33,617 bases of DNA from Acidobacteriota bacterium (GTDB lineage: Bacteria; Acidobacteriota; UBA6911). A model generated the notes under the pieces. It was not told where the DNA came from. It saw only the letters and a list, made by a program, of their open reading frames with translations, and searched no databases. How positions within the stretch are numbered: position 1 is the first letter of the stretch; each line of letters starts with the position of its first letter. This document shows, one piece after another, positions 12,821-13,432 of this stretch. The stretch is from the NCBI GenBank assembly GCA_016934555.1, contig JAFGSS010000055.1, positions 1-33,617 on the forward strand. Direction: 5' to 3'. The translations under genes were made by a program, and so were the position numbers.

Positions 12821-13432
12821 ATGTCATCTGCAAAAGTAGGAGCCAAAGCGCCGGAGTTCGAGGCGCCGGCCTATTACAAGGGCGGATTTACCACGGTGAA
12901 ATTATCCGATTTCCAGGGCAAGTGGGTGATGCTCTGTTTTTATCCCGGGGATTTCACCTTCGTTTGAGCGACCGAAGTGTCAGCGGTCGCTGCCAAATTC
13001 GACGAGCTTGCAAAGCTGGGTGTTGAAGTCATCTCCATGAGCGTGGACAGCCAGTTCGTGCACAAGGTCTGGAACGACCAGGAACTGTCCAAGATGGCCA
13101 AGAAGGACATCCCTTTCTACATGGCTTCGGACGGGGGAGGGAATATCGGATCGCTCTACGGCGTTTACGATCCGGAGGACGGCGTGGATTACCGCGGCCG
13201 CTTCATCATCGATCCCGACGGCGTTATTCAGGCGATGGAAGTGTTGACCCCGCCGGTCGGACGCAAATTCAACGAGACCGTCCGCCAGATCCAGGCCTAC
13301 CAGTACGTACGTGCCGCCAAGGGGACCGAAGCGTGCCCCGCGGGCTGGGAGCCGGGGAAGAAGACGCTCAAGCCGGCGCCGGAGCTGGTCGGCAACGTAT
13401 GGAAAGTCTGGGATCCGTTTACGGATCACTAG
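12821..13432 (+). CDS. Selenocysteine-containing AhpC/Prx1-type 2-Cys peroxiredoxin (in-frame UGA at 12965-12967 read as Sec49)
   Basis: Manual translation from ATG 12821: [48 protein letters not shown][U][157 protein letters not shown] replaces the peroxidatic Cys of PxxxTxxC; resolving Cys (EACPAGW) retained; frame open on both sides of the TGA; SECIS-like hairpin downstream. The ORF track shows only 12977..13432. Confidence 0.93.
12968..12996 (+). promoter_or_regulatory. Candidate bacterial SECIS element (GGUC apical loop)
   Basis: After the TGA: GCGACCGAAGTGT-CAGC-GGTC-GCTG-CCAA. CAGC (12981-12984) pairs with GCTG (12989-12992) around GGTC (12985-12988), 17 nt after the UGA; U at 12980 is unpaired or mismatched below the apical stem. 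A competing perfect 7-bp stem GCGACCG/CGGTCGC (12968-12974 / 12984-12990) also exists. Confidence 0.75.

Follow-up and report, generated by a model that had tools for sequence, protein, structure and literature searches.

Comparative evidence for a bacterial SECIS element with a GGUC apical loop in the selenocysteine peroxiredoxin gene prxU of an Acidobacteriota bacterium

Introduction

In the SECIS element of Escherichia coli fdhF, 18 nt lie between the UGA codon and the apical loop. For bacterial SECIS (bSECIS) elements in general, a published consensus model gives an apical loop of 3-9 nt, an upper stem of 4-16 bp, a G in the loop, a spacing of 16-37 nt, and a minimum free energy of -7.5 kcal/mol or lower, and it pairs N1 with N2 within the loop (PMC13188914). 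The prxU product of Peptoclostridium (Eubacterium) acidaminophilum is a proven selenocysteine (Sec) peroxiredoxin, according to the part of PMC13188914 that cites Sohling 2001. A search of the open-access literature found no paper combining GGUC and SECIS.

Here we analyze a 33,617-nt stretch of an Acidobacteriota genome (GenBank contig JAFGSS010000055.1, hereafter the window) in which a prxU gene is interrupted by an in-frame UGA and carries a hairpin with a GGUC loop shortly thereafter (Table 1). An earlier sequence-only reading had proposed this hairpin as a bSECIS-like element, and we compared it with its counterparts in related genes.

Results and Discussion

The prxU gene and its homologs

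The predicted product belongs to the PrxU family, scoring 375.5 bits against NCBIfam model NF040737 (peroxi_PrxU; cut-off, 270) with the UGA lying in the PGDFTFVU motif, and it also matches AhpC-TSA. A scan of species-representative genomes recovered 80 full-length prxU homologs with 69-88% identity, every one of which carries UGA at the same codon (81/81 rows when the window is included). A same-phylum search of 396 genomes likewise yielded 26 PrxU genes above the cut-off, all 26 with TGA, and P. acidaminophilum prxU has its UGA at the matching position. Since the patterns used to scan the species-representative genomes left out the hairpin codons, the GGUC loop was not preselected among the 80 homologs. 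The set of 107 genes used below spans the Acidobacteriota, Calditrichota, Chloroflexota, Proteobacteria, Synergistota, and Firmicutes.

Several features of the surrounding sequence and of individual relatives were recorded in passing. Downstream of prxU, the frame at 13311-14888 matches Cytochrome_C554/C7 and codes for a multihaem cytochrome c. One prxU match (L104, genome G008) contains, in addition to the TGA, a TAG that falls in the matched region but not in the segment aligning to the window protein, and this extra TAG is possibly just an N-terminal extension of the model. Two prxU lineages occur inside one genus, one comprising the window gene, L105, and L008 and the other L102 and L103. 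The window clade consists of those three members, its nearest rows beyond being from KSB1, Calditrichota, and similar MAGs, and genomes G007 and G009 carry the other lineage, with an AGUU loop. Together, these placements suggest horizontal transfer.

Table 1. Coordinates of prxU, its Sec codon, and the RNA features considered in this study
Feature	Position in window	Strand	Remarks
prxU, selenocysteine peroxiredoxin gene	12821..13432	+	203 aa via one in-frame UGA; motif PGDFTFVU
Sec UGA codon	12965..12967	+	Codon 49, peroxidatic position; in frame with ATG at 12821
Alternative 8-bp stem, 5' arm	12967..12974	+	Unconserved; free-energy minimum of the isolated RNA
Lower stem, 5' side (UGU)	12978..12980	+	U12980 opposite C12993, a mismatch in the window
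bSECIS upper stem, 5' arm (CAGC)	12981..12984	+	Paired in 105/105; 12982 covaries with 12991
Alternative stem, 3' arm	12984..12991	+	Overlaps the bSECIS loop and stem
Apical tetraloop (GGUC)	12985..12988	+	Positions 1 and 4 of the loop always G:C or A:U
bSECIS upper stem, 3' arm (GCUG)	12989..12992	+	Paired in 105/105, as is the 5' arm
Lower stem, 3' side (CCA)	12993..12995	+	Columns 15:30 and 14:31 paired in 72/105 and 78/105

Selenocysteine machinery of the genome

The genome that contains the window encodes selA (563 bits), selB (377 bits), and a UGA-containing selD (369 bits), and the whole length of its SelB can be aligned with the solved SelB structure 5lzb. No tRNA-Sec scored above the cut-off in this assembly, and the tRNA-Sec-like matches in it proved on ARAGORN analysis to be ordinary tRNAs (Ser, Phe, Arg, Lys, and His). 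A tRNA-Sec was found, however, in all 9 of the same-genus genomes searched. The DNA downstream of the tRNA-Sec in a same-genus genome maps to contig C69 of the present assembly and ends at base 5022 of 5024, at most 2 nt from the contig end. That the flank stops at the contig edge would explain the absence of the gene from the assembly; judged from this arrangement, the tRNA-Sec very probably lies in the assembly gap past the end of C69. Given the same-genus genomes and the position of the contig end, true loss of tRNA-Sec is unlikely.

Hairpin geometry

After the UGA, the sequence reads GCGACCGAAGUGU (12968-12980), followed by CAGC, GGUC, GCUG, and CCAA (12993-12996). The sequence-only reading, which had described CAGC[GGUC]GCUG with a loop starting 17 nt past the UGA, was correct in both letters and coordinates, and 107/107 related genes share the UGA, the 17-nt spacing, and all 4 bp of the upper stem. 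Set against the consensus model, the loop of 4 nt and the stem of 4 bp (4-8 bp in relatives) fall within the published sizes, a G stands within the first two loop positions (GGUC, with AGUU in 5/107 relatives), and the 17-nt spacing of the window and every PrxU row lies within 16-37 nt. On energy, the picture for the window is divided. The minimum of -13.8 kcal/mol computed for the isolated window RNA belongs to an alternative stem, whereas the SECIS hairpin itself is predicted at -4.0 or -5.4 kcal/mol, weaker than the published -7.5 kcal/mol. One relative (L159) does reach the published value, at -11.1 kcal/mol with the UGA and the following 11 nt held open. At the Rfam gathering score there was no match in the window, and the only match around the element was a chance one.

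Under a dinucleotide model, a GGTC tetraloop closed by at least 4 Watson-Crick pairs is expected 16-37 nt past a given point with a probability of about 6e-4. For the peptide S-A-V-A, the particular codons used in the window gene have a probability of about 0.06. The hairpin in the single window sequence is thereby only moderately beyond chance; the comparative evidence is decisive.

Covariation of the upper stem and loop

Covariation analysis among prxU homologs, which the sequence-only reading had put forward as a check, supports the upper stem. When all column pairs between 12935 and 13024 were compared across 81 sequences, 12982:12991 stood apart, with 1.66 bits of mutual information (0.54 bits for the next best pair) and Watson-Crick pairing in 81/81. 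All four pair types occur at this position without a single mismatch, both in the 81 sequences (AU, 31; GC, 35; CG, 11; UA, 4) and in the 105 (GC, 53; AU, 37; CG, 11; UA, 4). On trees built without the codons from Sec to the hairpin, this pair underwent a minimum of 10 changes among 105 rows and of 12 among 107. The upper stem was 100% paired in a 68-row alignment, where it showed 37 doubly changed cells versus a shuffle mean of 9.5, with 0/500 shuffles as high, and RNAalifold run on the same alignment returned the identical 4-bp hairpin. Position 12982 is the wobble base of a Ser codon (TCN) and 12991 that of an Ala codon (GCN), and the link between them is therefore not demanded by the protein. 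Such covariation shows that the bSECIS stem is selected for its structure.

The loop is conserved as well. The earlier reading had named loss of the GGUC loop in close UGA-containing homologs as an observation that would count against it; instead, the loop was kept, as GGUC in 101 and AGUU in 4 of 105 genes and as GGUC in 102 and AGUU in 5 of 107. Loop positions 1 and 4, also wobble bases, are G:C in 102 and A:U in 5 of the 107, with at least 2 changes on the tree, and this restriction to G:C and A:U alone fits the published N1-N2 pairing pattern. The entropy of the loop wobble bases, 0.23 bits, is the lowest among 28 fourfold columns, the next being 0.87 and the median about 1.7 bits.

The gene thus has a conserved UGA, a hairpin, and covariation within it, in a genome with selA, selB, and selD. 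Taken together, the universal UGA, the constant 17-nt spacing, the covarying stem, the near-invariant loop, and the selA/selB/selD set argue for a real bSECIS, a reading strongly supported by comparison across more than 100 related genes, and nucleotides 12978-12995 are almost certainly the bacterial SECIS element of prxU. Its kind is already known; this prxU member is new. By analogy with the E. coli mechanism, the hairpin would be bound by SelB and would direct Sec insertion at the UGA of codon 49. What began as a guess made by eye is now a tested RNA element, in which wobble bases are linked to one another across phyla over four consecutive codons (Ser-Ala-Val-Ala, 12980-12991).

Alternatively, the UGA may be a true stop, in a pseudogene or between two open reading frames, with the hairpin arising incidentally from the codons chosen for S-A-V-A. 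The codon-choice probability given above leaves room for such an accident in one gene, but the UGA and the coding sequence beyond it are kept in more than 100 species, a degree of conservation that refutes a true stop in practice, and the wobble bases covary, two of them being nearly frozen. We regard this explanation as extremely improbable.

The lower stem

The sequence-only reading had also likened an unpaired or mismatched U at 12980 to the bulged U of the E. coli element, and here the comparison went the other way. Among 107 relatives, 12980:12993 (columns 16:29) is UA in 50, GC in 6, AU in 1, and a U.C mismatch in 44, the window among these, so that the position is base paired in 57/107 and the likeness to E. 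coli is superficial. Where 12993 is A, the stem is continuous over 5-8 bp. Rather than the conserved bulged U of an fdhF-type SECIS, U12980 is best read from the alignment as a lineage-specific mismatch, a missing pair that appears to accompany Ala in place of Asp/Glu at the next codon.

The alternative stem and the codon after the UGA

A competing perfect stem, GCGACCG (12968-12974) with CGGUCGC (12984-12990) around a 9-nt loop, had been noted in the window; it exists and gains one further pair, A12967-U12991, to reach 8 bp. Because it shares bases with the bSECIS hairpin, a two-fold switch had been raised as one possibility; the 8-bp stem would then hide the SelB site and gate Sec insertion. 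The alternative stem is indeed far stabler in the window and L105, and the codon after the UGA (12968-12970) is GCG, which keeps pair 12970:12988, in 60/90 Ala rows versus 18.5 expected from the same genes (standard deviation, 3.7, uncorrected for kinship). However, no compensatory change was found in this stem among the relatives aligned, and its pairs form in 85.1% of cells, compared with a shuffled mean of 85.2%. All seven pairs are kept in just 36/81 rows, the stem is the free-energy minimum in only 32/105, and it is broken in L008, one of the two nearest relatives. Codons +1 and +2 show no joint change on the tree beyond chance, in a comparison with few informative pairs, and G-ending codons after the UGA are also found in selD (GCG in 10/17) and in Prx-like genes, which lack the alternative stem. 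Having neither covariation nor persistence in most relatives, L008 included, the stem does not support a switch, on pair counting, folding, or analysis of tree pairs, and we consider one very unlikely.

The alternative stem instead follows for the most part from the codons and from the fixed GCGGUCGC core. Judging from ribosome geometry, its 5' arm, no more than about 11 nt away from the UGA, would lie inside the mRNA channel when the UGA is in the A site, and the stem should consequently be melted at decoding. With the UGA and the following 11 nt held unpaired, the SECIS hairpin is the best fold in 91/105 relatives; in the window, another downstream fold wins. Energy minimization on one sequence alone can mislead, since here it picks a stem that is not conserved.

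GC content does not account for the GCG excess at codon +1 in the PrxU rows, and the excess may be a decoding context effect. This bias hints at context effects that could carry a further explanation, in which its context lets the UGA be decoded as Sec or some other amino acid and the hairpin is not needed. Yet selection on the hairpin at the RNA level is strong and the genome has the SelA/SelB/SelD set, and we give readthrough of this sort next to no credence. Codon +1 might itself be selected at the RNA level for a final G, which would act as an additional cis signal for Sec decoding beside the UGA, a proposal that we hold to be doubtful; a role of this G in the alternative stem, as part of a switch, is less likely still.

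Comparison with known systems

The selD gene of the same genome (L099) and a second family of Sec peroxiredoxins offer further hairpins for inspection. In selD, the UGA is followed by GGGUC[CCGA]GACCC, without the loop G found in its relatives, and by a second hairpin, GGCGCAG[GUG]CUGCGCC, 33 nt past the UGA; either could serve as a SECIS. Related genomes encode the distant second Sec peroxiredoxin (PADFTFVU; L108, L109, L110, and L126), whose gene has a bSECIS-like hairpin at 20 nt with a GGC triloop and a stem of 8-9 bp. Like prxU of the window, the selD and Prx-like Sec genes of this phylum have a hairpin past the UGA with a loop that starts with GG or GU, but they mostly carry triloops (GGA, GGC, GUC, or GUG) located at 17-33 nt. 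Since these loops differ, GGUC characterizes the PrxU gene family and not the genome as a whole.

With respect to the bSECIS consensus model (PMC13188914), the window hairpin differs in its own predicted energy, which falls short of the published threshold. The E. coli fdhF SECIS shares the GGUC apical loop and a similar distance from the UGA, but 4 bp rather than 3 separate the odd U from the loop in the window, the fdhF gene has no homology to prxU, and the U of the window is a lineage-specific mismatch and not a conserved bulge. P. acidaminophilum prxU differs from the window in its hairpin, UUUCAGC[AGUU]GCUGAAA, which has an AGUU loop and an unbroken 7-bp stem without the U.C mismatch; like the window gene, it encodes a Sec peroxiredoxin, with 69% protein identity, a matching UGA position, and a hairpin 17 nt past the UGA.
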